This document shows, piece after piece, positions 117 through 39,341 of a DNA stretch of 43,299 nt. Under the pieces are notes generated by a model. The model saw only the letters and a list, made by a program, of their open reading frames with translations. It made no database searches and was not told the DNA's origin. The stretch comes from Thermoplasmata archaeon (GTDB lineage Archaea > Thermoplasmatota > Poseidoniia > Poseidoniales > Thalassarchaeaceae), in the NCBI GenBank assembly GCA_002727675.1, contig PBXQ01000056.1:1-43299 (forward strand). Direction: 5' to 3'. A program made the position numbers and the translations under genes. Each line of letters starts with the position of its first letter. Positions within the stretch are counted from its first letter, which is position 1.

Positions 117-3100
117 ATGGCTTTAACACATAATCAATGGGCAGTCGTGGCGATTACCGTCACACTATGTTTGGCAGGAACTTACAGCATTGCTGGGAGC
201 ATAATGAGTACAGCAGTAGACTACGAAGATGCTGCAGATGATATATTAGAGGATGATGAAAATAACCTTAATGATGAAACTGTAGATTCTGATGAAGATG
301 GTTTGCGTGATCGTCTAGAAAGAAACACCTATGGTACTGACCCTTATGACGAAGATACTGATGGGGATGGAATGACTGATGGATATGAAGTTGAAGCCGG
401 ATTGAATCCATTAGATAGCGGGGACGCTGGAATTGAAGATATTATCACTGAAACTGAAACTGACAGCGGAGATGACAATTCAGGTACAGATGAAACTTGG
501 CCCGACCCTGACAACGGGCCTTTGGGCGACCCTGACAAAGATGGCCTAGTTAATATTGAAGAAATGGAGTTAGGAACCGACCCGCGACGTAACGATACTG
601 ATGGTGATGGATTAAATGACAAATGGGAATCTCTTTACACATTCAACATGGCAACACAATCTGGAGAATTGACTCTTTTTGACCCATTAGATGGTAATTG
701 GGACTGTGTGCTTCTAGACCCTGAATCAGTTGCTAATTTAGAAATTACAATGGGCTCTGAACTATGGGAACAACTTGCTAATTTCGCAGGCCAGCACTCA
801 TGTGACCAAGTTTTAGATTTTGATTCTGATACGCTTTCTAACTTTGCAGAAGAAAGTTATGGGACAAATCCTCTGTCAGAAGACAGTGATGGTGATTTGA
901 TTTCCGATGATGTAGAAGTAGCAATGGCACCAATAACATTGGAAATTGTTTGTGGTAAGCCCAAATTGAATGGGCCGACCAAAGATGGTCCATTTACTAC
1001 TTTACTAAATTCATTCCCAAGCACTTACGACCCACTCAATTGGTTCTTGGAGGACATGGATGGGGATGGCCGCAATAATGGACCCGGTGACTGGGATACA
1101 GATGGAGACCAAATGCCTGATGGGTTTGAGTACTGTTTTGATACATTACTAAACCCAGCTAACGCCTCAGATGCTTTTGGCGATTATGATGAAGATGGAT
1201 TGAATAATCGTGCAGAATATGATGTTGCTCGTGTTTGGGGCGCATCAAATTTCACTAGCCCATTGCTTGCCGACACTGATGAAGATGGAATGCCCGATGG
1301 ATGGGAATCAGACAATGGAATTAATCCAGTTGATGGAGGAAACGCCTATGAAGATCCAGACTTAGATGGCTGGGATGTTGATGGAAATGGCAAAGTTGTT
1401 TATGGAGACCTAGTTGGAATTGCCAAGGTATTCTCAATTGAAGTTGAATTGATGGATTTCGTTGAACAAAATCAGACCGTCGCATATGCAAGAATTTCAC
1501 AATCAGGAGGTAACGGATACAACAATGTACCACTTAAATCGCCTTGTGCTGGTTATGTTTATTCAATACCAGCTTTGACTCTAAAAGATGGACCAGATGC
1601 AGATAATGAGGTCACTAGCAGAAATTATGTTTGGATGGAAATTGTTGAAGAGGACGAAATGTTCACCAATTTAATGGAGTATCAAGCAAGAGATCGTGAC
1701 CTTGATGGGATTATTGATGGCAGATCTACTGATCCATTGAATCCTGATACTGATAGTGATGGACTCAAAGATGGAATCGAAGTGATGGGCTGGAATATAT
1801 TGGTTGTCAGCAAGGGTGTTCACGATATTCATGTTACATCCGACCCCGGAGATGTTGATACTGATGATGATGGATTAACTGACTGGAGAGAATTTGCTGA
1901 GACTTATACAAACGCATCTAACAAAGATACTGATAGTGATGGGTTAGAAGATTATGTAGAATCGGTCGATGGCTTCCAATGGCAAGGCGAACCATATTTC
2001 ACAAATGCAAGTATGTTTGATACAGATATTGATGGTTTAGAAGATGGGGAAGAAGTAATTTTAGGATTAGATAATTATGTCACTAATGCTAATGATTCGG
2101 ATTCAGATGACGATGGTTTGAAAGATGGGAATGAGGTTTTGTATATCCCAAGGCCATGGCAAGAAGCTACTAACCCATTAGTTAATGATACAGACCAAGA
2201 TGGAATGTTAGACGGTTGGGAGATGCAAGTTGAATCAACCATGGATAATACCAATTCTCATAGTTTATGGATTACTACTTCAAACTGGCAACCTCCAGGC
2301 TGTTCAGAACAATCCTGTGCAAGAGGACCGGGCGGTTGGTTGTGGAACAATTGGATTCAAGGATTTTCATCAGGATTAGACATGAATAACGATGGTGAAG
2401 GAGACCCCAAGTATTTCCTTTGGGAAATGAACCTTACCGGTTTTTCCATACCGTCATCTGGTGGGCGCTGGGCTCTTAATCCAGCATTAGGTTCGCTAGA
2501 AGATTCAGATTATGACATTGATAATGACACGCTTCTAAATGACTTGGAAGGGCCTGACCGGTGGAATACTAATCCCGTAAATAACGATACTGACGGCGAC
2601 CGTTTGCCCGATGGCTGGGAAGTGAAATATAGCGCACAAGCAATTTCAGAAGGACTTGTAGATAATCTAACCCTAGAAAATTTAGGTGCTAGGGGTCCAA
2701 TGGATCCTGCCCTAGAAGACAGTGATTTAGATGGCATTCCAGATGGGGAAGAAGATTTCGACAGGGATGGCTTGAACCGTACAGCTGAATTGAACCGGTT
2801 TTGTCCCGATTGGAATGATCCTACGGCATTTAACTGTCATATTGATCCTAATGACCCACAAGGCGCCAAATTTTACAATGATTTAGAAAATTATACCAAT
2901 TATGAAGAAATGTTAAACAGAACTAACCCCGTTTTGAATGACACTGATGGAGATAGTTTAGACGATGGGCCCGAGGTATACTATATGGATTCAGACGGAG
3001 ATAGTATGTTCGATGGTTGGGAATATTATTTCAGATTTGATCCATTTGATGGCGGTGATGCTAATTTGGATTCTGATAATGACACCTTTTCTAATAAATG

Positions 3101-3179
3101 TGAGCATAAATGGCATACCAACCCTAAGCAAGGTAACAGTTACCCTGGACAGGGTCAACTCTGTGATCAATTTGCATAA
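117..3179 (+). CDS. Secreted or membrane-tethered thrombospondin type 3 (TSP3) calcium-binding repeat protein
   Basis: 1020-aa ORF; N-terminal hydrophobic segment (WAVVAITVTLCLAGTYSIAG); about 25 DxDxDGxxDG/N motifs, e.g. DTDGDGMTDGYEVEAGLNP, DTDEDGMPDGWESDNGINP. Confidence 0.85.
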   Translation: MALTHNQWAVVAITVTLCLAGTYSIAGSIMSTAVDYEDAADDILEDDENNLNDETVDSDEDGLRDRLERNTYGTDPYDEDTDGDGMTDGYEVEAGLNPLDSGDAGIEDIITETETDSGDDNSGTDETWPDPDNGPLGDPDKDGLVNIEEMELGTDPRRNDTDGDGLNDKWESLYTFNMATQSGELTLFDPLDGNWDCVLLDPESVANLEITMGSELWEQLANFAGQHSCDQVLDFDSDTLSNFAEESYGTNPLSEDSDGDLISDDVEVAMAPITLEIVCGKPKLNGPTKDGPFTTLLNSFPSTYDPLNWFLEDMDGDGRNNGPGDWDTDGDQMPDGFEYCFDTLLNPANASDAFGDYDEDGLNNRAEYDVARVWGASNFTSPLLADTDEDGMPDGWESDNGINPVDGGNAYEDPDLDGWDVDGNGKVVYGDLVGIAKVFSIEVELMDFVEQNQTVAYARISQSGGNGYNNVPLKSPCAGYVYSIPALTLKDGPDADNEVTSRNYVWMEIVEEDEMFTNLMEYQARDRDLDGIIDGRSTDPLNPDTDSDGLKDGIEVMGWNILVVSKGVHDIHVTSDPGDVDTDDDGLTDWREFAETYTNASNKDTDSDGLEDYVESVDGFQWQGEPYFTNASMFDTDIDGLEDGEEVILGLDNYVTNANDSDSDDDGLKDGNEVLYIPRPWQEATNPLVNDTDQDGMLDGWEMQVESTMDNTNSHSLWITTSNWQPPGCSEQSCARGPGGWLWNNWIQGFSSGLDMNNDGEGDPKYFLWEMNLTGFSIPSSGGRWALNPALGSLEDSDYDIDNDTLLNDLEGPDRWNTNPVNNDTDGDRLPDGWEVKYSAQAISEGLVDNLTLENLGARGPMDPALEDSDLDGIPDGEEDFDRDGLNRTAELNRFCPDWNDPTAFNCHIDPNDPQGAKFYNDLENYTNYEEMLNRTNPVLNDTDGDSLDDGPEVYYMDSDGDSMFDGWEYYFRFDPFDGGDANLDSDNDTFSNKCEHKWHTNPKQGNSYPGQGQLCDQFA

Positions 3180-4948: not shown

Positions 4949-6295
4949 ATGTTTGAAGGGGGTGGCGACAAGCATAGGGATTCTTCTTCAATGATTACGA
5001 ATGAAGAGTACTGCCATCGTCAATCAGCTTTTTTGGCTGATATCCCCTTAGATAACGTTGTTTTAATCCCAACGAATCCCGTAATGGTTAGGTCAAGAGA
5101 TACTAATTTTCCTTTCAGAGCTAACTCATACATTCTATATTTGTGTGGATGGAATGAACCAGAGGGATTATGGATGGCTCACCATAATGGAACCAAGTGG
5201 ATTACATCATTATTTGTCCAACCTAGAGATGAAAAGAAAGAAATCTGGGAAGGGCGACGAATTGGTGTAGAACAAGCATCCACACAATTCCCAGTAGATG
5301 AAGCATATTCGATTGATGATTTAGATGAAGTAATTAAGTCCTTACTATCAGATAGTAAAGGTATAAATTATATTCAAGGACTTAATTCTAATTTAGATGA
5401 ATTAGTAAAACAATCTGGATCTAAATATTCCGATCCAAGACCTGTATTAGATTCTTTAAGAATACTTAAGTCCCCACAAGAAATTGAAGTAATGAAAAAA
5501 TCCGCAGAAATAGCATCTCAAGCACATATTAATTCTATGAAAGCAGGCCACCCAAATGTTGGAGAATGGGAATTACAATCAGTAATAGAATCACATTTTG
5601 TTAATTGCAAGAGCACCTGGGCCTATCCATCAATTGTAGGAGGAGGTGAGAATGCTACAATATTGCATTACAAGTCCAATAACGAAGTCATAAATGATGG
5701 AGAATTGGTCCTAATTGATGCAGGTTGTGAAGTTTTAGGTTATGCTTCAGACATTACAAGAACATGGCCAGTAAATGGCACTTTTTCTCAACCACAAAGG
5801 GAAATTTACGAACTTGTACTTAAAGCACAATTAGCAGCAATTGAAGCATGTAAAGTAAATAATCATTGGAAATCAATGCATGAAGCAGCATCAATAGTTA
5901 TTGCACAGGGATTGATAGATCTGGGCATTTTACAATGCTCATTGAAAGATGCATTGGGAGATAATTTTGATGGGCAATACCGAAAATTCTTCATGCATGG
6001 TACTGGACACTTACTTGGACTGGACGTTCATGATGTAGGAGGAGGAAGACAAGGAGATGATTCACCAGGACCCTTACTACAACCAGGTATGGTTGTTACA
6101 GTAGAACCGGGGCTATACTTTGCATCATGGCGAAGTGATATTGATGTCCCAGACAGATACGCTGGCATTGGAATTAGAATAGAAGATGACATATTAATTA
6201 CTGATGATGGGCCTGTTAATTTATCCGAAAATTGTCCTAAATCTATCGAGATGATCGAAGCATTAGTTGGGTCAGGAGGTGGAAATCATGTCTAA
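4949..6295 (+). CDS. Xaa-Pro aminopeptidase (M24B family)
   Basis: AMP_N-like N-terminus; M24 metal-ligand motifs (LIDAGCEVLGYASDITRTWPVNG; FFMHGTGHLLGLDVHDVG; GMVVTVEPGLYF; GIGIRIEDDILIT). Start could be 4949 or 4991. Confidence 0.9.
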   Translation: MFEGGGDKHRDSSSMITNEEYCHRQSAFLADIPLDNVVLIPTNPVMVRSRDTNFPFRANSYILYLCGWNEPEGLWMAHHNGTKWITSLFVQPRDEKKEIWEGRRIGVEQASTQFPVDEAYSIDDLDEVIKSLLSDSKGINYIQGLNSNLDELVKQSGSKYSDPRPVLDSLRILKSPQEIEVMKKSAEIASQAHINSMKAGHPNVGEWELQSVIESHFVNCKSTWAYPSIVGGGENATILHYKSNNEVINDGELVLIDAGCEVLGYASDITRTWPVNGTFSQPQREIYELVLKAQLAAIEACKVNNHWKSMHEAASIVIAQGLIDLGILQCSLKDALGDNFDGQYRKFFMHGTGHLLGLDVHDVGGGRQGDDSPGPLLQPGMVVTVEPGLYFASWRSDIDVPDRYAGIGIRIEDDILITDDGPVNLSENCPKSIEMIEALVGSGGGNHV

Positions 6296-7460
6296 TTGGA
6301 GAGATATACTTACTCGGCAGATGCAAGATGATCCTCCTAGACTAACAATTGATGAAGCAATTATCCTATACAATGAATCCGATCTCAATCACTTACGCCA
6401 AGCGGCATTTAATAGAAAAAAACAAATTCACTCACCTGAACAAGTAACTTATCTGATTGATCGTAATATTAACTATGGCAATGCATGTACAATTAACTGT
6501 CAGTTTTGTTCTTTTTATGTGCCCCCTAATTCTGAAAATGCATATTTACAGACAAAAGAACAAATTAGCGCTAGAATTCGTGAATTGGAAGATATTGGTG
6601 GCTCACGGATTTTAATGCAAGGAGGTGTAGATCCAAACCTAGAGATTGAATGGTATGAAAACTTATTATCATATTTGCAAATTAATCACCCTAGTATTCA
6701 TTTAGATTGTTTTTCACCAATTGAAATTGAGGGTATAGCTGAAGTGTGTGGCATGAATACATTAGATGTGCTATCCCGTTTGAAAAATTCGGGTTTACAC
6801 GGCTTACCTGGTGGCGGGGCTGAAATGCTCGTTGATGACGTACGCCTAGATATTTCACCTAAAAAAGGTGGAGCTGGAAATTGGCTTAAAATCATGAGTG
6901 AAGCACATTCAATTGGATTAATCACTAGTGCTACAAACGTAATTGGATTTGGTGAAACAAATAAACAAAGAATTTTACATATGAATCAAATAAGAGAGCT
7001 TCAAGATAGTTCAATTAAACAAGGTTTACAAGGATTCACTTCTTTTATTTCTTGGACAGCACAATTAGAAAATAATTCATTTGGGAAAAAACACAAGGGT
7101 AAAATTTTGCCTATTCAACCCCCAGAATACTTGAGGCACGTGGCTATTTCAAGACTTTTTTTAGATAATATTGATCATATTCAAGCATCTTGGTTAACTA
7201 TGGGAATAGATATTGCACAATTAGCACTATTCGGAGGTGCTGATGATATAGGTTCAACCATGATGGAGGAAAATGTAGTTTCTGCAGCAGGAACTACTAA
7301 GGTACTTTGTACTGAAGAAGAATTGCAATACGCCATTACTAAAGCTGGATTTAAACCCAAAAGAAGAGACTCTGAATACAACCTACTTGAAACTCCTAAA
7401 TTAGTCATAGAAGCGCATCAATATATTTCACCACCAATGATTCAATATAATGTTCTATAG
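6288..7460 (+). CDS. mqnC: Radical SAM enzyme of the MqnC (cyclic dehypoxanthinyl futalosine synthase) type
   Basis: CTINCQFC (CX3CX2C) cluster motif; MqnC-like LMQGGVDPNLEIEWYENLL, GLPGGGAEMLVDDVRLDISPKK, QASWLTMGIDIAQLALFGGADDIGSTMMEENVVSAAG. GGAGGT precedes the ATG at 6288, overlapping the upstream gene. Confidence 0.8.
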   Translation: MSNWRDILTRQMQDDPPRLTIDEAIILYNESDLNHLRQAAFNRKKQIHSPEQVTYLIDRNINYGNACTINCQFCSFYVPPNSENAYLQTKEQISARIRELEDIGGSRILMQGGVDPNLEIEWYENLLSYLQINHPSIHLDCFSPIEIEGIAEVCGMNTLDVLSRLKNSGLHGLPGGGAEMLVDDVRLDISPKKGGAGNWLKIMSEAHSIGLITSATNVIGFGETNKQRILHMNQIRELQDSSIKQGLQGFTSFISWTAQLENNSFGKKHKGKILPIQPPEYLRHVAISRLFLDNIDHIQASWLTMGIDIAQLALFGGADDIGSTMMEENVVSAAGTTKVLCTEEELQYAITKAGFKPKRRDSEYNLLETPKLVIEAHQYISPPMIQYNVL

Positions 7461-7470
7461 CAACTTATTA

Positions 7471-10400
7471 TCAATCATCTATTGAAGATAAGAAGTAATC
7501 ATCCCTCAACCAAGCCTCAATTTGAGGGGATAAAATAATCTCACCATTAGAATCATTTTGTAATGGTGAATAAGGCTCATGTGTAAACATCTGGATACTG
7601 ATGTTAATGTTACTAATATTTGTATAATATACAATGTAAGAAGTGACTCTAATGTCTTGATTAGTACCGCTACTTTGCTCGTTTTGAGGGATGTAGTTTA
7701 CACCATCGTAAAGTCCCTGATATTGCATCAAATTAGAGCCGCCTGACCAGTCAACCCAATTTGTTATATCCCAAACCCATGGTTTAGTATCTTGGCCAGC
7801 GCACCATCCTGCGCGACCATATGGCCAAGAACCCTTTTGGTTAGCTACAGTCCCCGCATGAGTTTCCTTTGCGCAACCCTCACGATCACTACTTACAGTA
7901 CTATTACCAGCCATAGGGTGATCTTCCTGTGTAACAAAACCATTCATAGAAAAACGATGCTCATGATTGCAGAACTCAGCACAATTAGCATCATCCTTAC
8001 CAAAACCATGACCTGTCACAACAGATGAAATAACAACCTTGTCGGTACCTGATGGAATTGACAAGTTATGGATTCTCTTATACTGTGACTGATTATTGTA
8101 TTCTCCGCGGAAAGTCCCTCCGCTAAATGCATATTCGGCAGAAGTTGGTCGTAACCCATCATCATCCCATGTGGAAAGATAAACAGAGATATTCAGCCAA
8201 CCACCATTTGCACCACCATAACGGAACTCCTGTAACCCACCACCCTGTACCATGAACAGATAGGTGCTTATGTCAGTAAGCCAACGACCCTCCCTGCCAT
8301 ATGTAGTAATATAACGAACAAACTCATCACCACAAGTTGAGTGGTTACCTACCTCTTGACAGATATTCAATCGCTGATCATAATCCCATTCATGACAACC
8401 ACCCCAAGTACCGTCACTTTTCTGATACCTATCTCTCCTCTCACTACATCCATGGTGCATGTAAACCTCCATAGTATTGAATGACAACATGGTTGTTGAA
8501 TTTGGAAAAGTTCCGTTTGCAAATGATTTATGTCCAGACCCCCAGCCACCTGAATGCCTCTGTGATTGCCATAAATCTACTACAGTAATAGCAGAATCAT
8601 GCTTACGCATTTCAACAGGATACTCGGCATTCCACATTTGTGGCTCCTTAGCTAAGTAATCAAAACGGTATTCCGGTTCAGAAGACCACGACCTAGCCCA
8701 ATTATACAACGAACCTATTTCCCTCCATTGTTGGAATCGGTCTATACCATAGTAAAATTGACTCCATGAGGAAATTACAGAACCTAATCCACCACCAATA
8801 GAACCTGCTTGCTGATAAACAAAATGAACATTATCGTCAACCCATAATTTGCCTTCTTCGTTTTGGGTATTACGGTATGAATTTACTCTATTGGCCATTG
8901 CATCAACATCTGACTGCCAATCACTATCATATGAACCAAAGAATATATGGCAATTTTCAGGTACTTCAGACAACAATGTTCCAACATTCTGATTCCATAT
9001 ACTGCTCATGTATGAACTAGAACTCTGCAAGAATATGAATAGATAGGTACTATTTCCATCCCATTGGATTGAAAAACGCCAATTCCCATCAAATTTAGTA
9101 TTGAATGAAAAATCTGAAGCCTTGCCAAAACGGGAATTAGAATATGATCCTGTGCTCCAACTTACTGGGTGCTGGATAACGGCACATCCATCAACATCTA
9201 CAGACCACCTATTAGGTGAATTAGGACATACATCGACATTAGCATAAACCCCATCACCATCTAAGTCAGCACAACCTTGCTCATTGACTAATAGCCCAGT
9301 GGGGGTGCCTTCACATTGGTCAACATCATCCATCACCCCATCATTATCTGAATCCCATTCATACTCAGCACATCCAAATTCATTAACAGAAAAACCTATG
9401 ATTGTTTCCGGGCAGGTGTCATTAGAATCTAATACTGAATCATTATCATCATCTAAATCTTCATCAGAATCCCTACAACCGTCTGAATCCCTGTCATTAA
9501 TTGAACTTGGAAACCAGCCAATTACCCCCTTAGGACACAAATCATTAACATCTTGAATGCCATCATTATCATCATCTAAATCAAAATCACTGTCCCTACA
9601 ACCATCCCGATCATAATCTGAAACAAATGATGATGTCCACCCATAAGGTGAATCAAGGCAGTCATCATCTAGATCAATTACACCATCACCATCATCATCA
9701 TCATCCTCAGAATCATCTCTACATCCATCGCCATCTTTATCATTAATAGGATTAGAAAACCAACCTAATTCTCCCTTTTCACAATTATCATCTATATCTT
9801 GAACACCATCATTATCATCGTCATTGTCCTCAGTAGCATCTTTGCATCCATCAGAATCATAATCCATGGTAGGCAGACGAATAGAATCACCATTAGGACA
9901 TGAATCAAAATCATCAGGTATTCCGTCATCATCAGCATCAGCGACTAACTCATCTAGTATATTCCCTGAGACATTTGTACTAACAACAGAAAGAGTATAG
10001 AGGCCACAATTTGCAATTACAAGTGCTGAGAAATTTTGTTCAGGTGTTAGAATAATGTGGAAAGAACCAGAATTTGAATCAAAAAATATCATATCTGATG
10101 AAAAATTAATTCTTGCCGTATTATTTCCAATAACATTGTCTCCCCAAATTATGCCACCATTTAATGAGCATGATTCGATGAAATTATGTTCTAATTGGCC
10201 CGTAATCTGGACTTCATCGCCACTTTCAAACCAAATCTGTTTACGCCAAATTGTTAATGTAGCATCATCTTCATCAGGCAGTAATATTGTAAATTCTTTA
10301 GTTAAAGACTCTGATTGTTTTTCAGCTTTATCTAATGCAGTCACAGTCACAGAATAATTACCTGGCTCAAGGTCTTCAATTATGAATTCCCAATATCCTT

Positions 10401-10665
10401 GACCATCTGGCTTTTCGTATACCTCAAGCGATACAATAGATACTGTGATAATTATTGTCACATCTTGCAACAACTCATCATTTACTTTGCCAGATAATAA
10501 AACTGAATTACCCCAAATAACGTCATTGACAGAATAAAATTCCAGTACAGGTGATTTATCTTCTATTACTTCAGTTTCAGATGATTCAGACGAAAAAGGA
10601 CCTATACAACCTGAAAAAAGTAATAGCAATGTTAAGCCCAAGGCGTGTGTGATGCTCTTATTCAC
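7471..10665 (-). CDS. TSP3-repeat lipoprotein with C-terminal PNGase F-like domain
   Basis: Lipoprotein signal (LTLLLLFSGCIG); TSP3 array (DADDDGIPDDFDSCPNG ... DLDDDNDSVLDSNDTCPE); C-terminal motifs GCHEWD, NCAEFCNHEHRFSMNG, GCAKETHAGTVANQKGSWPYGRAGWCAG align to PNGase F. Confidence 0.82.
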   Translation of the reverse strand: MNKSITHALGLTLLLLFSGCIGPFSSESSETEVIEDKSPVLEFYSVNDVIWGNSVLLSGKVNDELLQDVTIIITVSIVSLEVYEKPDGQGYWEFIIEDLEPGNYSVTVTALDKAEKQSESLTKEFTILLPDEDDATLTIWRKQIWFESGDEVQITGQLEHNFIESCSLNGGIIWGDNVIGNNTARINFSSDMIFFDSNSGSFHIILTPEQNFSALVIANCGLYTLSVVSTNVSGNILDELVADADDDGIPDDFDSCPNGDSIRLPTMDYDSDGCKDATEDNDDDNDGVQDIDDNCEKGELGWFSNPINDKDGDGCRDDSEDDDDDGDGVIDLDDDCLDSPYGWTSSFVSDYDRDGCRDSDFDLDDDNDGIQDVNDLCPKGVIGWFPSSINDRDSDGCRDSDEDLDDDNDSVLDSNDTCPETIIGFSVNEFGCAEYEWDSDNDGVMDDVDQCEGTPTGLLVNEQGCADLDGDGVYANVDVCPNSPNRWSVDVDGCAVIQHPVSWSTGSYSNSRFGKASDFSFNTKFDGNWRFSIQWDGNSTYLFIFLQSSSSYMSSIWNQNVGTLLSEVPENCHIFFGSYDSDWQSDVDAMANRVNSYRNTQNEEGKLWVDDNVHFVYQQAGSIGGGLGSVISSWSQFYYGIDRFQQWREIGSLYNWARSWSSEPEYRFDYLAKEPQMWNAEYPVEMRKHDSAITVVDLWQSQRHSGGWGSGHKSFANGTFPNSTTMLSFNTMEVYMHHGCSERRDRYQKSDGTWGGCHEWDYDQRLNICQEVGNHSTCGDEFVRYITTYGREGRWLTDISTYLFMVQGGGLQEFRYGGANGGWLNISVYLSTWDDDGLRPTSAEYAFSGGTFRGEYNNQSQYKRIHNLSIPSGTDKVVISSVVTGHGFGKDDANCAEFCNHEHRFSMNGFVTQEDHPMAGNSTVSSDREGCAKETHAGTVANQKGSWPYGRAGWCAGQDTKPWVWDITNWVDWSGGSNLMQYQGLYDGVNYIPQNEQSSGTNQDIRVTSYIVYYTNISNINISIQMFTHEPYSPLQNDSNGEIILSPQIEAWLRDDYFLSSIDD

Positions 10666-10705: not shown

Positions 10706-11788
10706 TTATTCAATTTCAAGCCTACCAGTTTGAGCAGATAGAGTATTAATTGTAGACGTCTCAGATTGGACATTTAATTTTTCTATCCAAAATAATTTAC
10801 CATGAACTGATGAATGAATTTCTATGACAAGTTCCCAATTAATATTTACAAAAGGCCCATACTCACTACTTGGCCAAGATTGTTCAGGAGGCTTCAATTC
10901 ATTAATAGAGCCATTAATTATAGTAGTAGGTTGACTAGAATCTTGAATTCTCATTGGTTCTTGAAATAATCTCGAAGATCCTGAACCTACAACCATTGGT
11001 GTTGCTTCACCTATCCCAGAACCATCATCTGCTATGGGCATCCATCCCTTAGGGATTGAAGTTGATAAACCAACAGGGGGACGTGATTTATTTTTATGTT
11101 CTAATGCAAGCATCAAAGCATCTCTATGAGGTGGCAATAATCCAACCCTCACGTATCCTCTAATCTTATCTCGTGAGAATATTTGGGGAAGATTACAACT
11201 AAATTTTATTTTGTCATTTGTATTTGAGGAGGCAATATCAATTTTTGGTTTAGGAGGCATATTTTTGATAAATTTGTGCTGTCTCCTTATATCTATCACA
11301 TTCGCAACCAATCTAAATAATAATGACAACATGACAAATGGAGTTGCCATTACAAACAATATTGGATAATCCAATAAGCCCAAACTGATGCTACCAGCCC
11401 ATTCATTTGGCATAACCCCCCAATTAACCAATACTGGTTCTAATACGTGAAGAATTATAGCAAAAATTAGGATTACAACCCCATAAGGAATGGATTTACG
11501 GGCTAACGAATGAAGACTATTCGGAGATAATGCCCATCCGTTTCTAGATGCTAATAATCTATTGATATCATAATCTAATGGTGAACTAAATGGATCAATA
11601 TGTTCAGAATTTGGTTTAGAATCGCAGATATCCCTATGGATAAACCAACCATTTTCATCACCTAAAGATAATTTCGTATCTGATTCAATAGTTGGCCAAC
11701 AGACATCTACATAATCCATCTCTTTTGGGATATGAGATGGTGCATCAAATGGTGGGAATCGCATCCTCAAGTGCGTCCATTTTGGCAA
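10706..11788 (-). CDS. Hypothetical membrane protein with about two TM segments
   Basis: 360-aa ORF; hydrophobic segments YGVVILIFAIILHVLEPVLV and YPILFVMATPFVMLSLLFRLV; ends 1 nt before the next gene's start. Confidence 0.65.
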   Translation of the reverse strand: MPKWTHLRMRFPPFDAPSHIPKEMDYVDVCWPTIESDTKLSLGDENGWFIHRDICDSKPNSEHIDPFSSPLDYDINRLLASRNGWALSPNSLHSLARKSIPYGVVILIFAIILHVLEPVLVNWGVMPNEWAGSISLGLLDYPILFVMATPFVMLSLLFRLVANVIDIRRQHKFIKNMPPKPKIDIASSNTNDKIKFSCNLPQIFSRDKIRGYVRVGLLPPHRDALMLALEHKNKSRPPVGLSTSIPKGWMPIADDGSGIGEATPMVVGSGSSRLFQEPMRIQDSSQPTTIINGSINELKPPEQSWPSSEYGPFVNINWELVIEIHSSVHGKLFWIEKLNVQSETSTINTLSAQTGRLEIE

Positions 11789-13009
11789 TTAATCACCCCT
11801 TAATAACGCCCATGTTGCACTAACGGCCATCTTACGGAATTCAGGAACCTCCTTGAGCATCTTAATTCCTAATGTGACCGGCTTTTCTATGTCCCCTACT
11901 TCATTAATCATTTCAACAACATTTGGTTTTGCAAATGTTGCGAAAGTCTCCTCTAATTCATCATCATTACAATCTGACAAATATAAATTCCTTAGAATTC
12001 TAGCCCTATTCTGGTCCTTTTTCATATGTTTCAATGGTTTAGCTATGACTTGTAATTTAGATTTAGATAACTTGTTCTCTTTAATTGCAGAAATTAATCC
12101 TTCATGCATTAAATCGACCTGTTCAAAACCTGGGCCTATCCCACCCCCAGTAGTAGGCTTGCAAAGACCCACAGCATCCCCAAAAAGGGCTACGCGATCT
12201 TTCACTGGCCGGGATACAACTCCAGAAGTCAAAGGGCCACAATATCGAGAAACCTCTTTTGAATTAGCAAATCTTTCTTTCCAAAGTGGATGATTAATTA
12301 GTGAATAATACAATTCCTCACAACTACGGCCATTCAAATCTTTCACTGTGGACCAAACACCCACCCTCCAACTTTTACCACTAGGGATTACCCAAGCAAA
12401 AAAGCCAGGCGCCACATTTTCCCCTGTATACATATCTAGTAGACCATCGGCACCATCATAGTTAACAACCTCTGCCTGAAAGCCAATCATTATTTCTTTT
12501 GAATTACCCATTTTAAAATATCTTCTTACCCAAGAATGCGCACCATCAGCACCACATAAAAGAGAAGCTACTACACTAACTTCACGACCACCGCGATTTA
12601 CTTCAATCTTAATTCCATCATCAATATACTCTGCAGAAATTGGTTGAGAATCTAGCCATAACCTTGAACCTTTTTCAATTGCCTTAGCCACAATTCCTTG
12701 ATCAAACATTTTTCTACACACCACATGAGTTTTTATCTCTCCTTCATTACCCACAATGACTTGATTTCCTTTTGGACTATGGATTCTAGCACCCCAAACA
12801 GAAGATAGAATTGATGACTCTAATCCAACCTTTGTCATTGCAGAAGGTGTGACAAGTCCTGCGCATTGGAATGGGCGGCCTATTTCTAGGTGTTCTTCTA
12901 GTAACAAAACATCTAATCCAGCAGAACTTAGTTTCTGAGCGAGATACCCTCCTACTGGACCAGCCCCTACGATTACTACATCGGCGCGTTCTTCCATGAT
13001 GAGTGCCAT
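11789..13009 (-). CDS. Geranylgeranyl reductase family FAD-dependent oxidoreductase
   Basis: FAD-binding DVVIVGAGPVGGYLAQKLSSAGLDVLLLEEH, GRPFQCAGLVTPSAM, LFGDAVGLCKPTTGGGIGPGFEQVDL. Confidence 0.88.
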   Translation of the reverse strand: MALIMEERADVVIVGAGPVGGYLAQKLSSAGLDVLLLEEHLEIGRPFQCAGLVTPSAMTKVGLESSILSSVWGARIHSPKGNQVIVGNEGEIKTHVVCRKMFDQGIVAKAIEKGSRLWLDSQPISAEYIDDGIKIEVNRGGREVSVVASLLCGADGAHSWVRRYFKMGNSKEIMIGFQAEVVNYDGADGLLDMYTGENVAPGFFAWVIPSGKSWRVGVWSTVKDLNGRSCEELYYSLINHPLWKERFANSKEVSRYCGPLTSGVVSRPVKDRVALFGDAVGLCKPTTGGGIGPGFEQVDLMHEGLISAIKENKLSKSKLQVIAKPLKHMKKDQNRARILRNLYLSDCNDDELEETFATFAKPNVVEMINEVGDIEKPVTLGIKMLKEVPEFRKMAVSATWALLRGD

Positions 13010-23662: not shown

Positions 23663-24385
23663 CTAAGATGAATTGTCCCGTGAATTTCGTAAGTTTCCAG
23701 TCCAAAAACCCCATATTATAAATCCACTAATTAGTGATATCATATGAGCAGATGATGTGTAAAAGCTTATTCCATGAAAAAAATGATTCCAATATTCAAA
23801 GGTAATTGCAATTACAGGAATTAATAACATATTCTTGCATTGGTGAGATGAAGCACCAATCAGCCCGAAAAAACCAGCAGAACCCCCCATCCAATTACGT
23901 GAAAAACCTTCATCAAGAAGCGTACTTTCTGTCCATATTAATTCTGAGATATTCATTACTGATGACATTATCAGTGCAGTAATACAGGTGAAGATCATGA
24001 AAAGAATATATGTTCTTAAAGATCCTAAACGTGCTTCAAATGATTGAACAAATAATAAAAAACCGAATGATACGAAAATAATATGCTCGTTTGAATTATG
24101 AAAAATAGGCGCAATAAGTAAAGAAAAGAAAAATCGTAATGGTGCATCAATTAGATCTGCGGGCCAAATTCCACCGATGCATGATAATCCACCCCCATTA
24201 GCATAACAGAGATATTCTGGCCCACGACCAATCGTTATCCAAATAACCCAGATTATCATTAGGTAAGTGTAGGTAAATTTCCGTGACATAAATGCCTGAA
24301 ACGGTTTCAATTGTTCACCGTTAGAATTGCGCCAAGGCCAAGACCAAGGGAGTATGGTTTTTTGTTTACCCTTCAAAAAAATCAC
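23663..24385 (-). CDS. Rhomboid-family intramembrane protein
   Basis: Polytopic; FHNSNEHIIFVSFGFLLFVQSFEARLGSLRTYILFM; candidate Ser in GGSAGFFGLIGA and His in SAHMISLISGFIIWG. Confidence 0.78.
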   Translation of the reverse strand: MIFLKGKQKTILPWSWPWRNSNGEQLKPFQAFMSRKFTYTYLMIIWVIWITIGRGPEYLCYANGGGLSCIGGIWPADLIDAPLRFFFSLLIAPIFHNSNEHIIFVSFGFLLFVQSFEARLGSLRTYILFMIFTCITALIMSSVMNISELIWTESTLLDEGFSRNWMGGSAGFFGLIGASSHQCKNMLLIPVIAITFEYWNHFFHGISFYTSSAHMISLISGFIIWGFWTGNLRNSRDNSS

Positions 24386-26511
24386 CCCTTGGGGGGATTA
24401 ATTTCGTCATAATATTCTACTACTGAATTTTCGAATTCTAATGCGATTTCTTTTTTTGCCTGATACTGGCCTTTATTAATTATTGATTCCATTACTGATT
24501 GCCTTTTCTTAATACTCAATAAAACTGACAATGCTAGTAAGACTGAAATTGTAATGATAATATTACTAGGTTCAGATAAAAAGCGTGCTATTTCACCACC
24601 TTTTTCATGTTTCTCTGCCGTCAAAATTATTTCACTTTCTTGTTCCAATCCTTGTGAATCACGAATAATTAATTCACCCCTAGCAACCATTCCAGGGACC
24701 AACAAACCATTTGGCTCCACAGTAATATTCAATTCTGAGCCTTCACCTAAATTCTGAGTTTCTTTGGTAGATGTGATTCTTTCTAATGGCCCCTCTATTC
24801 GTACTTCCCATGTTTGAAAGCCATCACCATCAAATGATAATGGAATATGGAAGTATGATTGCTCGGAGTAATGTATATCCTTTTCAAATGTATCAATATT
24901 TAGCCTTAATCCAATATTATGAAATTCCATGCTAATATTTAATGGAGCAGAATTGCCACAATTGAAACTACCCTCCAATCTACCCTCTGAACCAGCAACA
25001 CCTTCTGAATCCCATCTTAATGTCCTAACTTCTTTATTGCCTGCAATTAATGCTTGATCTTCTACAATAGTTACTATTCTTCCGTCTGATGAAATAATAT
25101 TTGATTCAAGTTGGCAACTAACTGATGACTCCACATGCATTATTAAATCTTCATTGCCCAATAATTGAATTGGCTTGTGAGGAGGAATTACATCAAAAGT
25201 AGAGACTCCTTGACTTGAAATATTTATTTTAATAAAATTTGAATCCATTGAAACGACTTCGGCGGTCCAATTAACAATACGACCATAATGATCAATGATT
25301 TGTATTCCCTCTGCTCCAAATTTTTGACTAGGAGAAAACACATCACCTGCAGAACCTTTATCATTTCCAGAAAGCAACCCACTATCACCATCTGATTCTA
25401 GAACATATAACCAAGGATTATCTGGGTCAGTATTTACTAAATTTTGCTCAGAATCACCTACTGCACTATCTTGTAATGTTACTAACAATCCATGGCCTGG
25501 CAACTTTTTATCAAAACCAATGTCAGCCCTGTATGACATCCAAACTTTCTCTGATGGTGAAATTTGTATAAACAAACCATCGCCACCATCAGATAAAGGC
25601 GATAAAATATATTCTTGAATTTGGCCTGTACTAGATATTGATACTTCAGTTGCCCTATCTAGTCCGATTAAATCCATGGTGGCCAAAGATGGTAATGCTG
25701 GCGTACGCCCATTGGCTCCATTCCAATTACCACTAGCCATGATATCCCAATCACCCACGCCATTCCAATCATCCCCTGTACCCAACCCATGTACATCATA
25801 AATATCTAAAGCACCCATTTGATGAAGCATTTCATGCATAATTGTACCAAAACCAGAATCGAAACCTGCTATAGTATAATGGTCAAACTTGTAATCACCC
25901 ACCTCTACTGTATCTTCTAAATGACCAAAATGACTCCAAATATTAGATGTGCTCCCAGAATCTTCCTGTACATTACCAGTATGAAGAAGAAGAAGACGAT
26001 CTATCCAACCGTCTGAATTTAAATCAAATTGAGATAAATCATATCCGTTAAATGAATTCTTAATTACTGATTCTGCAAGTCCTGCCGGACCATTAGAACC
26101 ATCTTCGCCAGCATCACGAACATCTCCATCATCCTTACCCCAATAACCATCATTATTCTGAGAATGGTATACTTCTGGGAAAATTGATACTGAAAGGTTG
26201 GTCAGACCACCACTAGTTTGGGATAAATAATCATCAGCACCATTGGTCCCAGTAAGAAGAATACCTGCTTTTTCTATATTCCTAAAACCATTTACTGGAG
26301 CGTTTGGGAAATCAACAACCACTACTAGCCAACTTTCATCTTCTTGTAAGGGCACAATTGGAGCATCATTTATTGTATCATGAGTATAATCATTTAATAA
26401 GTCAAAATAAGGCTCTACCTTGGATGGATCTTGACTAATATACCACCCTGCAACAATTATCATTGCCGCTAAAGGGACAGCAATCATCGCCCTCATGTTT
26501 AATCGCTGCAC
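24382..26511 (-). CDS. M6-family (immune inhibitor A-like) secreted metalloprotease with C-terminal TM
   Basis: HEMLHQMGALDIYD zinc motif; N-terminal hydrophobic segment; C-terminal TM NIIITISVLLALSVLLSI followed by KKRQ; overlaps the rhomboid gene by 4 nt. Confidence 0.85.
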   Translation of the reverse strand: MQRLNMRAMIAVPLAAMIIVAGWYISQDPSKVEPYFDLLNDYTHDTINDAPIVPLQEDESWLVVVVDFPNAPVNGFRNIEKAGILLTGTNGADDYLSQTSGGLTNLSVSIFPEVYHSQNNDGYWGKDDGDVRDAGEDGSNGPAGLAESVIKNSFNGYDLSQFDLNSDGWIDRLLLLHTGNVQEDSGSTSNIWSHFGHLEDTVEVGDYKFDHYTIAGFDSGFGTIMHEMLHQMGALDIYDVHGLGTGDDWNGVGDWDIMASGNWNGANGRTPALPSLATMDLIGLDRATEVSISSTGQIQEYILSPLSDGGDGLFIQISPSEKVWMSYRADIGFDKKLPGHGLLVTLQDSAVGDSEQNLVNTDPDNPWLYVLESDGDSGLLSGNDKGSAGDVFSPSQKFGAEGIQIIDHYGRIVNWTAEVVSMDSNFIKINISSQGVSTFDVIPPHKPIQLLGNEDLIMHVESSVSCQLESNIISSDGRIVTIVEDQALIAGNKEVRTLRWDSEGVAGSEGRLEGSFNCGNSAPLNISMEFHNIGLRLNIDTFEKDIHYSEQSYFHIPLSFDGDGFQTWEVRIEGPLERITSTKETQNLGEGSELNITVEPNGLLVPGMVARGELIIRDSQGLEQESEIILTAEKHEKGGEIARFLSEPSNIIITISVLLALSVLLSIKKRQSVMESIINKGQYQAKKEIALEFENSVVEYYDEINPPKG

Positions 26512-37471: not shown

Positions 37472-38188
37472 GTGAGTAGCCACCGTGATGATTTGAGCAA
37501 ACTCCTTGATCGCAACACAGATTCTAGCAGGGATGAACCTGAAGTTGCTGCTAATATAGGAGAGCAATTAAAACACATGGAGTTGAAATCATTACCAATA
37601 AGTTTGAGGCGAAGAATTAGAGACGTTGTTGCACAAATTAAACCACAAAATATTGTAGAAGTTGGTGCTGGAATCGGACATCTTTCGGCATGGTTGTTTG
37701 ATGAGTGGGATACAACCGAACATACTCCATCAAGATATATAATGGTAGAAGCCGGAGGCAAATTTGGAGTAATCCTAACCCGGTTAATTGAACGATATAA
37801 TGCTTCAAAATGGGCTCAAGTTGTTGTGGGTGAATGGAATGAAATTATTGCTGAACAAAGAAGTTGGGTCGCTGCCAATACTTCATCTTCAGAGAATTCT
37901 ATGATCTCAAAATCTCCATTACCAACAAATATTGATATTTGCATTATTGATGTTGGTTGGGAAAATCAAAATGCTTGCATCATGGGGGCAGTCCCCTTAC
38001 TTGGTGAAAACAGCATCATACTAACATCAGAACCCGATGTACCTGATGAAAATGAAACAGACGAAAATAAAATTGCTGCTTTTAACGAATGGATTGTATT
38101 AGTAAAAATGCTGAATGAAACTCATGAAATAGGTTTTGTCCCAATGTTTGGTGGTACATTGATAGGGATTAGAAAGGTTAAGCGTTAG
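37472..38188 (+). CDS. SAM-dependent methyltransferase-like protein
   Basis: GTG start; NIVEVGAGIGHLSAWLFDEWD, YIMVEAGGKFGVILTRLI Rossmann-type pattern. Confidence 0.6.
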   Translation: MSSHRDDLSKLLDRNTDSSRDEPEVAANIGEQLKHMELKSLPISLRRRIRDVVAQIKPQNIVEVGAGIGHLSAWLFDEWDTTEHTPSRYIMVEAGGKFGVILTRLIERYNASKWAQVVVGEWNEIIAEQRSWVAANTSSSENSMISKSPLPTNIDICIIDVGWENQNACIMGAVPLLGENSIILTSEPDVPDENETDENKIAAFNEWIVLVKMLNETHEIGFVPMFGGTLIGIRKVKR

Positions 38189-39341
38189 ATGCGGCAATCA
38201 ATGATTCTACATCTAATACCCCATACCCATAGTGGTCATCGTGACTATCTTGGCCCGAAGAAGAATCTGAAATCCATTGCTTGACATCTGAAATCGCCCC
38301 AGAGCCACCTGATGAGCCATCTTGTTGAATTTCTGGGTTCTCCTGCAATAGAAGTGCAATAGCACCTGATACCCAGGCTGTTGCGGCAGATGTTCCTGAT
38401 GCATAGCCCCATGGCAAAAATCCATCTTCAACTTGACTTAACGGAATCAAAATTGGGACATCTTCACCTGGCCCTGTTAGTTCGGGTTTTTTGTCGGGGT
38501 CACTCCTTGACAATCTTGGTGGAATCAAATTGAAATTATTGTCACCTTGACTAGAACCAGACCAAATAGATCCCATACGATCAACCCCCCCTACACAAAT
38601 TACATCTTCAACTGATCCCGGACTTGAAACATCCCCATCATCATTTTCACCATCATTACCAGCGGCTGCAATAACGAAAACTCCGGCTGAAATAGCATCA
38701 TCAACAGAATTTTCAAGAGAGTCTGTGCTGCTAATTATAAAATTAAATCCGGCAGCACCTCCTAAACTCAGTGAGATGACATCAACTCCCGATGCAACAC
38801 ACCAGTCTACTGCTGCAGCAATAGTATCGTCATCACCTTCACCGTCTGATGACATTGCTTTAGCCACAAATAAATCTGATTTAGGTGCAACTCCTTTCAT
38901 CCAACCTTCTGCCCAAATCAATCCAGACATTGCAGTTCCATGACCTTGATCATCATATGGTACGTCTCGGTCATTAATGAAATCCTTCCAACCTGACAGA
39001 TTCTTGTCGGCAAAGTCTGTGTGAGTCAAATCAATACCAGTATCCACAACACAGATAGATACACCACCCCCATTAGCTGAAACGTTATCTAAGCCAGTCA
39101 AGGACCTAAAATCATCCTGCCAATTCAATAAATCTTCTGGGGGGCCACTCTTTTCAGGATTTTGAAATACATACTGATAAAGTCCAATGCCTGCAATCGT
39201 AACTGATGAAATGATTAACAACGCAGAACCTATAGAAAGAATAATTGCCACATGTTTTTCCGAGATCACGGGTTTCTTTTTTTCTTGATTAGGGAATTCT
39301 GGCATATCAACAGTTTCCCAATCAACTTCTGATTTGCCCAC
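38178..39341 (-). CDS. Membrane-anchored subtilisin-like serine protease (S8)
   Basis: Catalytic motifs ICVVDTGIDLTHTDF, GHGTAMSGLIWAEG, YASGTSAATAWVSGAIAL; N-terminal TM VAIILSIGSALLIISSVTIAGIGLY. Confidence 0.92.
   Translation of the reverse strand: MGKSEVDWETVDMPEFPNQEKKKPVISEKHVAIILSIGSALLIISSVTIAGIGLYQYVFQNPEKSGPPEDLLNWQDDFRSLTGLDNVSANGGGVSICVVDTGIDLTHTDFADKNLSGWKDFINDRDVPYDDQGHGTAMSGLIWAEGWMKGVAPKSDLFVAKAMSSDGEGDDDTIAAAVDWCVASGVDVISLSLGGAAGFNFIISSTDSLENSVDDAISAGVFVIAAAGNDGENDDGDVSSPGSVEDVICVGGVDRMGSIWSGSSQGDNNFNLIPPRLSRSDPDKKPELTGPGEDVPILIPLSQVEDGFLPWGYASGTSAATAWVSGAIALLLQENPEIQQDGSSGGSGAISDVKQWISDSSSGQDSHDDHYGYGVLDVESLIAASNA

Follow-up and report, generated by a model that had tools for sequence, protein, structure and literature searches.

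Does a long reverse-strand gene of a planktonic marine archaeon encode an enzyme that strips N-glycans from proteins, and, if so, whose glycans would it remove? The question arises in the window (the whole stretch of 43,299 nt that was analysed), where a PNGase F-like domain on a TSP3 lipoprotein had been proposed at 7471-9200. That interval covers the C-terminal half of the encoded protein; the gene start, at 10665, is well outside it. Release of N-glycans by this superfamily is already known from bacteria and eukaryotes. In the open-access literature searched we found no link of Poseidoniales, or Marine Group II, with PNGase and no archaeal enzyme of the PNGase F superfamily.

Gene, domain layout and neighbours

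The features of the locus are as follows (evidence in brackets).

7471..10665, minus strand: whole gene of a predicted surface lipoprotein with an Ngly2-type PNGase domain (ORF of 1,064 aa; homologues; purifying selection)
10606..10665, minus strand: predicted lipoprotein signal peptide with lipobox FSGC, Cys20 (sequence)
9946..10605, minus strand: N-terminal Ig-like region, residues 21-240 (weak Big_13 match, E 3e-4, under the Pfam cut-off)
9196..9939, minus strand: TSP3-type repeats, a predicted Ca-binding stalk, residues 243-490 (Pfam TSP_3, E 8e-6, only just exceeding the cut-off, in five stretches)
8671..9126, minus strand: thioredoxin-like domain without CxxC, about residues 514-665 (profile alignment to 9lwg, Foldseek, model)
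8599..8664, minus strand: linker helix as in Ngly2, residues 668-689 (helix H178-199 of the model)
8131..8592, minus strand: first jelly-roll with the catalytic GCHEWDY, about residues 692-845 (profile alignment to PNGase F and Ngly2; model strands)
7630..8100, minus strand: second jelly-roll, Pfam N-glycanase_C, residues 856-1012 (same place matched in a whole-genome search)
8383..8385, minus strand: Asp761, the predicted catalytic Asp (D60 in PNGase F, D421 in Ngly2; alignment)
8332..8361, minus strand: fourth cysteine pair, C769/C778 (common to Ngly2 and PNGaseDr, not in PNGase F)
8008..8010, minus strand: His886, the pocket His, in the TGHG loop (counterparts: H546 of Ngly2 and a Trp of PNGase F; alignment; family motif in PMC12381499)
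7975..7977, minus strand: Glu897, the predicted catalytic-site Glu (E206 in PNGase F, E555 in Ngly2; alignment)
6267..7460, plus strand: convergent neighbour, radical SAM protein of CofH/MqnC type, a syntenic marker (Pfam CofH_C; conserved neighbour)
10706-11788, minus strand: upstream membrane protein, a syntenic marker (conserved neighbour)
11789-13009, minus strand: upstream FAD-dependent reductase of geranylgeranyl-reductase type, a syntenic marker (conserved neighbour)

The ORF has a GTG start codon, and homologues across Poseidoniales are about 1,000-1,100 aa long. A whole-genome search of the window's own genome found a single N-glycanase_C gene. The signal peptide ends in LLLLFSGC, with SGC or AGC at the equivalent place in full-length homologues; by its lipobox Cys the protein is a predicted archaeal lipoprotein. 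The stalk has DxDxDG motifs at 10 positions and is followed by about 570 residues. The lipobox and the TSP_3 match agree with the TSP3 lipoprotein of the original prediction, and its planktonic marine archaeon is recognizable in the names of the relatives (Candidatus Poseidoniales, Thalassarchaeaceae, Poseidoniaceae).

Family assignment and active site

The window protein belongs to the PNGase F superfamily. Pfam N-glycanase_C matched it with 75.3 bits (E 5.2e-21, cut-off 25) and also matched 24 of 24 relatives. The companion model, N-glycanase_N, had no match in the window protein and one, at E 0.097, among the 24 relatives, so that only one of the two Pfam domains expected from the original prediction was found. 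The region nevertheless aligns by profile with the first jelly-roll in both PNGase F and Ngly2; the N-glycanase_N model is therefore too narrow and the first jelly-roll is not absent. A profile built from 24 archaeal sequences was searched against solved structures: it found Ngly2 at E 3e-67 and PNGase F (3pms, 1pnf, 1pgs) at E 3-4e-13 over both jelly-rolls. The PNGase F-like motifs quoted earlier are thus real.

The closest solved relative, however, is zebrafish Ngly2 and not Elizabethkingia PNGase F. The superfamily had been named correctly; the nearer relative and the thioredoxin-like domain had been missed. When the window protein itself was compared with solved structures by phmmer, the sole significant match was zebrafish 'Si:dkey-256h2.1' (9lwg; E 5e-32), with no PNGase F chain; this protein was published in 2025 as Ngly2, an acid PNGase of fish eggs (PMC12753239). 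Profile residues 24-141 align to residues 84-201 of Ngly2, its thioredoxin-like domain (i-E 0.0019), and the alignment then jumps from Ngly2 residue 201 to 346, past the PA domain (186-318). No PA domain was matched by Pfam in the window protein or the 24 relatives, and the sequence of the thioredoxin-like domain in the window protein has no CxxC.

An AlphaFold2 model (pLDDT 75, pTM 0.76) has the two side-by-side jelly-rolls that the earlier proposal implied, some loops being of low confidence. Its best Foldseek match in the PDB, over the full length, was 9lwg (E 2.7e-28, TM 0.70), followed by PNGase F. The thioredoxin-like domain, modelled with pLDDT of about 86-96 over most of its length, also matches thioredoxin folds. 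Several loops of the active site were modelled with low confidence (residues 252-256, 265-269 and 398-403, counted along the modelled stretch).

The pocket residues were located by alignment. GGCHEWDYD stands at residues 755-763, NCAEFCNHEHRFSMNG at 894-909 and EGC...GSWPYGRAGWCAG at 929-957. The GCHEWDY motif contributes Trp760-Asp761-Tyr762, TGHG contributes His886 and CAEFC contributes Glu897. The equivalents of D60 and E206 are kept, as had been claimed (Asp761 and Glu897), and both residues, like His886, are invariant in 24 relatives. The three cysteine pairs of PNGase F are likewise present at the sequence level: C740/C757, C895/C899 and C931/C955, counterparts of its three disulfides, are invariant across 24 sequences, and the additional pair C769/C778 is invariant in all 24 archaeal sequences. 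A loop signature described for the superfamily (aromatic-Asp-positive/aromatic, and His plus Glu on the opposite loop; PMC12381499) is found in the window protein. In Ngly2, Ala mutants D421A and E555A abolished activity (PMC12753239).

Ngly2 (lysosomal acid PNGase) and the archaeal protein share a thioredoxin-like domain without CxxC, the linker helix described in PMC12753239, the double jelly-roll PNGase domain, the catalytic Asp and Glu, the TGHG His and the fourth Cys pair; identity of the catalytic domains is 35%. They differ in that Ngly2 has a PA insert in its thioredoxin-like domain and lysosomal targeting, whereas the archaeal protein lacks PA and has a lipobox, an Ig-like region and a TSP3 stalk instead. 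They also differ at one pocket position: where Ngly2 has His422 and PNGase F has Arg61, the window protein has Tyr762 and the relatives displayed have Tyr or Phe. The acid activity of Ngly2 was attributed by its authors to its two active-site histidines (PMC12753239). With Tyr in the place of H422, the archaeal enzyme would be expected to depend less on acid, in keeping with seawater, and its pH range and substrate may differ from those of Ngly2. It would be a new deglycosylating enzyme that may work at seawater salt and pH.

Against the catalytic profile, Deinococcus radiodurans PNGaseDr (WP_010889584; tested as a recombinant protein in PMC12381499) scores 232 bits, with E 2e-72 when two sequences were searched, a match as strong as that of Ngly2. 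Its catalytic domain is 32% identical and it bears a lipobox; unlike the archaeal protein, it has a PA-like segment (by eye) and no TSP3 stalk. Elizabethkingia PNGase F (1pnf, 3pms; identity 28%) shares the double jelly-roll, D60/E206 and three disulfides, but it has no thioredoxin-like domain, Trp for the pocket His and no fourth Cys pair. PNGF-II and the gut Bacteroides PNGases (4r4z, 3ks7) have the same fold (Foldseek E about 1e-8) and are much more distant; PNGF-II has a different, bowl-like domain at its N-terminus.

In a small tree (four non-archaeal sequences only, very long branches) Ngly2, PNGaseDr and the archaeal proteins were separated from PNGase F and a Hymenobacter sequence with support 96/98. 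Read alongside the fourth Cys pair and the thioredoxin-like domain that the archaeal proteins have in common with Ngly2, this tree suggests an Ngly2-type branch of the superfamily with an archaeal form that lacks the PA insert. Ngly2, the animal acid PNGase, would thereby have relatives among prokaryotes that combine a thioredoxin-like and a PNGase domain in the same unusual way, and its origin would become testable by phylogeny.

Substrate and role

As an overall explanation we favour a surface Ngly2-type peptide:N-glycanase whose role is most likely nutritional, and we hold this to be probable. Within the PNGase F superfamily the protein would belong to the Ngly2-type branch and act as a peptide:N-glycanase (EC 3.5.1.52) that a lipid anchor and a Ca-binding stalk hold at the cell surface. 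With Glu897 and His886 in support, Asp761 would hydrolyse the innermost GlcNAc-Asn amide bond of N-glycoproteins or glycopeptides, yielding the free glycan and turning Asn into Asp. Catalysis as a glycoamidase is highly probable. The analysis establishes homology, fold, a conserved active site, an anchoring signal, conservation and vertical inheritance; catalysis itself, specificity for Asn-GlcNAc, exposure at the surface and the part played in nutrition are inferences. Removal of N-glycans from phytoplankton or detrital glycoproteins near the cell would then let surface peptidases digest the protein. Marine Group II has been associated with algal matter (PMC8821943), and a PNGase anchored on planktonic archaea that are widespread in the ocean would contribute a concrete step to the marine breakdown of glycoprotein-rich algal matter.

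The original proposal named two uses, attack on glycoproteins and S-layer remodelling. Foreign glycoproteins taken as food seem a likelier substrate than the archaeon's own coat, because lineages without PNGase retain the N-glycosylation enzyme. STT3/AglB was detected in 57 of 60 Poseidoniales genomes, and 23 of the 24 Thalassarchaeaceae that lack PNGase have it. PNGase is thus dispensable for glycosylating cells, not a required partner of self-glycosylation.

Could the same chemistry be self-directed, trimming or recycling AglB-attached N-glycans on surface proteins of the cell itself, whether to turn over or remodel the coat or to escape viruses? In favour of this, STT3/AglB is present in 57 of 60 genomes of the order; the enzyme, which carries many sequons itself, would be tethered to the archaeon's own surface; and with the catabolic partners GH20 and GH92 absent (neither family, needed to finish N-glycan digestion, was found in any of 60 genomes) the released glycans would be no obvious food. 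We consider this use, the main rival, unlikely, given that STT3/AglB persists in PNGase-negative Thalassarchaeaceae, where a clean empty site was seen in 15 of 15 examined, and that the pocket of PNGase F is suited to GlcNAc-GlcNAc cores. A more speculative form, which we rate as rather improbable, would have Poseidoniales maintain a matched N-glycan writer (giant AglB) and eraser (surface PNGase) at their own surface, and would derive animal Ngly2 from the same prokaryotic thioredoxin-PNGase lineage, with PA inserted into the thioredoxin-like domain later.

The STT3/AglB of Poseidoniales is itself a giant of about 3,200 aa (L144:5095-14841), with some 16 predicted membrane helices, the WWDYG motif and a sequon-rich tail of roughly 2,100 residues that holds CarboxypepD_reg-like repeats and one C-terminal membrane helix. 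Most genomes searched have ORFs in this size range, about 3,000-3,300 aa.

It is very doubtful that the protein is a glycan-binding or structural one built on a PNGase scaffold and devoid of amidase activity. Jelly-roll folds often turn into binding modules, the thioredoxin-like domain has no CxxC here or in Ngly2, and oyster PNGaseCg was little active on the substrates tried (PMC12381499). However, the catalytic Asp, the Glu, the pocket His and every cysteine pair of the pocket stay the same even in a distant third family, which would be unexpected for a dead enzyme.

The nutritional role of a surface PNGase is also favoured by the smaller genomes of the PNGase-negative Thalassarchaeaceae listed, and a further lead comes from GH38 alpha-mannosidase, present in six of seven PNGase-positive and none of 24 PNGase-negative Thalassarchaeaceae (Fisher 1e-5, confounded by shared ancestry). 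As GH38 is absent from PNGase-positive Poseidoniaceae, the two occur together in a few related genera only; being limited to Thalassarchaeaceae and to an enzyme without a signal peptide, this co-occurrence is a lead and not proof. The GH38 gene (L143:2170-5952) lies within a sugar-kinase cluster and its product has a long Pro/acidic N-terminal extension. No glycan-utilisation cluster was found around the PNGase gene; this and the lack of GH20 and GH92 in 60 genomes count against the nutritional reading.

Also in favour, the window holds genes for an M24 aminopeptidase-P family protein, an M6-type metallopeptidase (24382-26511) and a subtilisin-like protease (38178-39341; by eye). The latter two and a large DxDxDG-rich surface protein (117-3179), regarded as further surface or secreted enzymes, are not clustered with the PNGase gene.

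Distribution, gene order and descent

PNGase is not confined to one genome: it is an ancestral gene of Poseidoniales. N-glycanase_C was detected in 121 of 244 genomes of the order. In a set of 60 genomes, carriers made up 26 of 29 in the other family and 7 of 31 in the window's family, Thalassarchaeaceae. Among the Poseidoniales ('Marine Group II'), archaea that are common in the marine plankton, many carry this predicted cell-surface N-glycan-stripping enzyme. A third family of the same class has PNGase in four genomes; a sample of 390 genomes from across the phylum gave none beyond these families. Third-family proteins are shorter (about 890 aa) and have a long Cys-containing insert after GCNEWDF, beside the catalytic Asp (L055-L058). 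The nearer named relatives are mostly Thalassarchaeaceae and the farther ones mostly Poseidoniaceae, all of them Candidatus Poseidoniales.

Both families have the same gene order (TSP3 protein, PKD protein, M24 peptidase, CofH, PNGase, membrane protein, reductase, topoisomerase), and this synteny was conserved wherever flanks were read. PNGase-negative Thalassarchaeaceae have a clean empty site: the gap from CofH to the geranylgeranyl-reductase-type gene, computed from listed coordinates, is 1.09-1.23 kb in 15 of 15 such genomes examined vs 3.2-8.2 kb in carriers. The PNGase-negative Thalassarchaeaceae listed have smaller genomes, about 1.2-1.6 Mb. Presence of PNGase in the Poseidoniales ancestor with loss in several genera is the parsimonious reading. 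The gene is under strong purifying selection (dN/dS about 0.06 between two close relatives; relative to the window gene, synonymous sites are saturated or nearly so).

The window comes from a metagenome-assembled genome, 70% complete and in 82 contigs, yet contamination or a recently acquired bacterial gene is refuted by synteny and hardly credible, with the same gene order in both families in many independent assemblies, divergence that fits vertical descent, and archaeal neighbours around the one relative labelled Deltaproteobacteria, whose label is an error.

A functional operon was rejected: the neighbours (radical SAM CofH-type protein, M24 aminopeptidase, reductase, topoisomerase I) are conserved but have no functional link. 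A scan for promoters and terminators gave sites no more numerous than in shuffled sequence. Viral origin or carriage was rejected as well, there being no relatives in IMG/VR or phage records.

A few public records deserve mention. The contig labelled Deltaproteobacteria (JAOMAZ010000001; L083) has the Poseidoniales gene order around PNGase, which indicates a wrong taxon label or contamination in the record. A contig labelled Rhodobiaceae bacterium (CALDQY010000189; L104) carries a 47%-identical copy and is probably mis-binned too. One assembly (G218) has two copies (L037, L038), of which one resembles its own genus and the second the other family; this pair likely reflects binning of two organisms, or possibly two paralogues.
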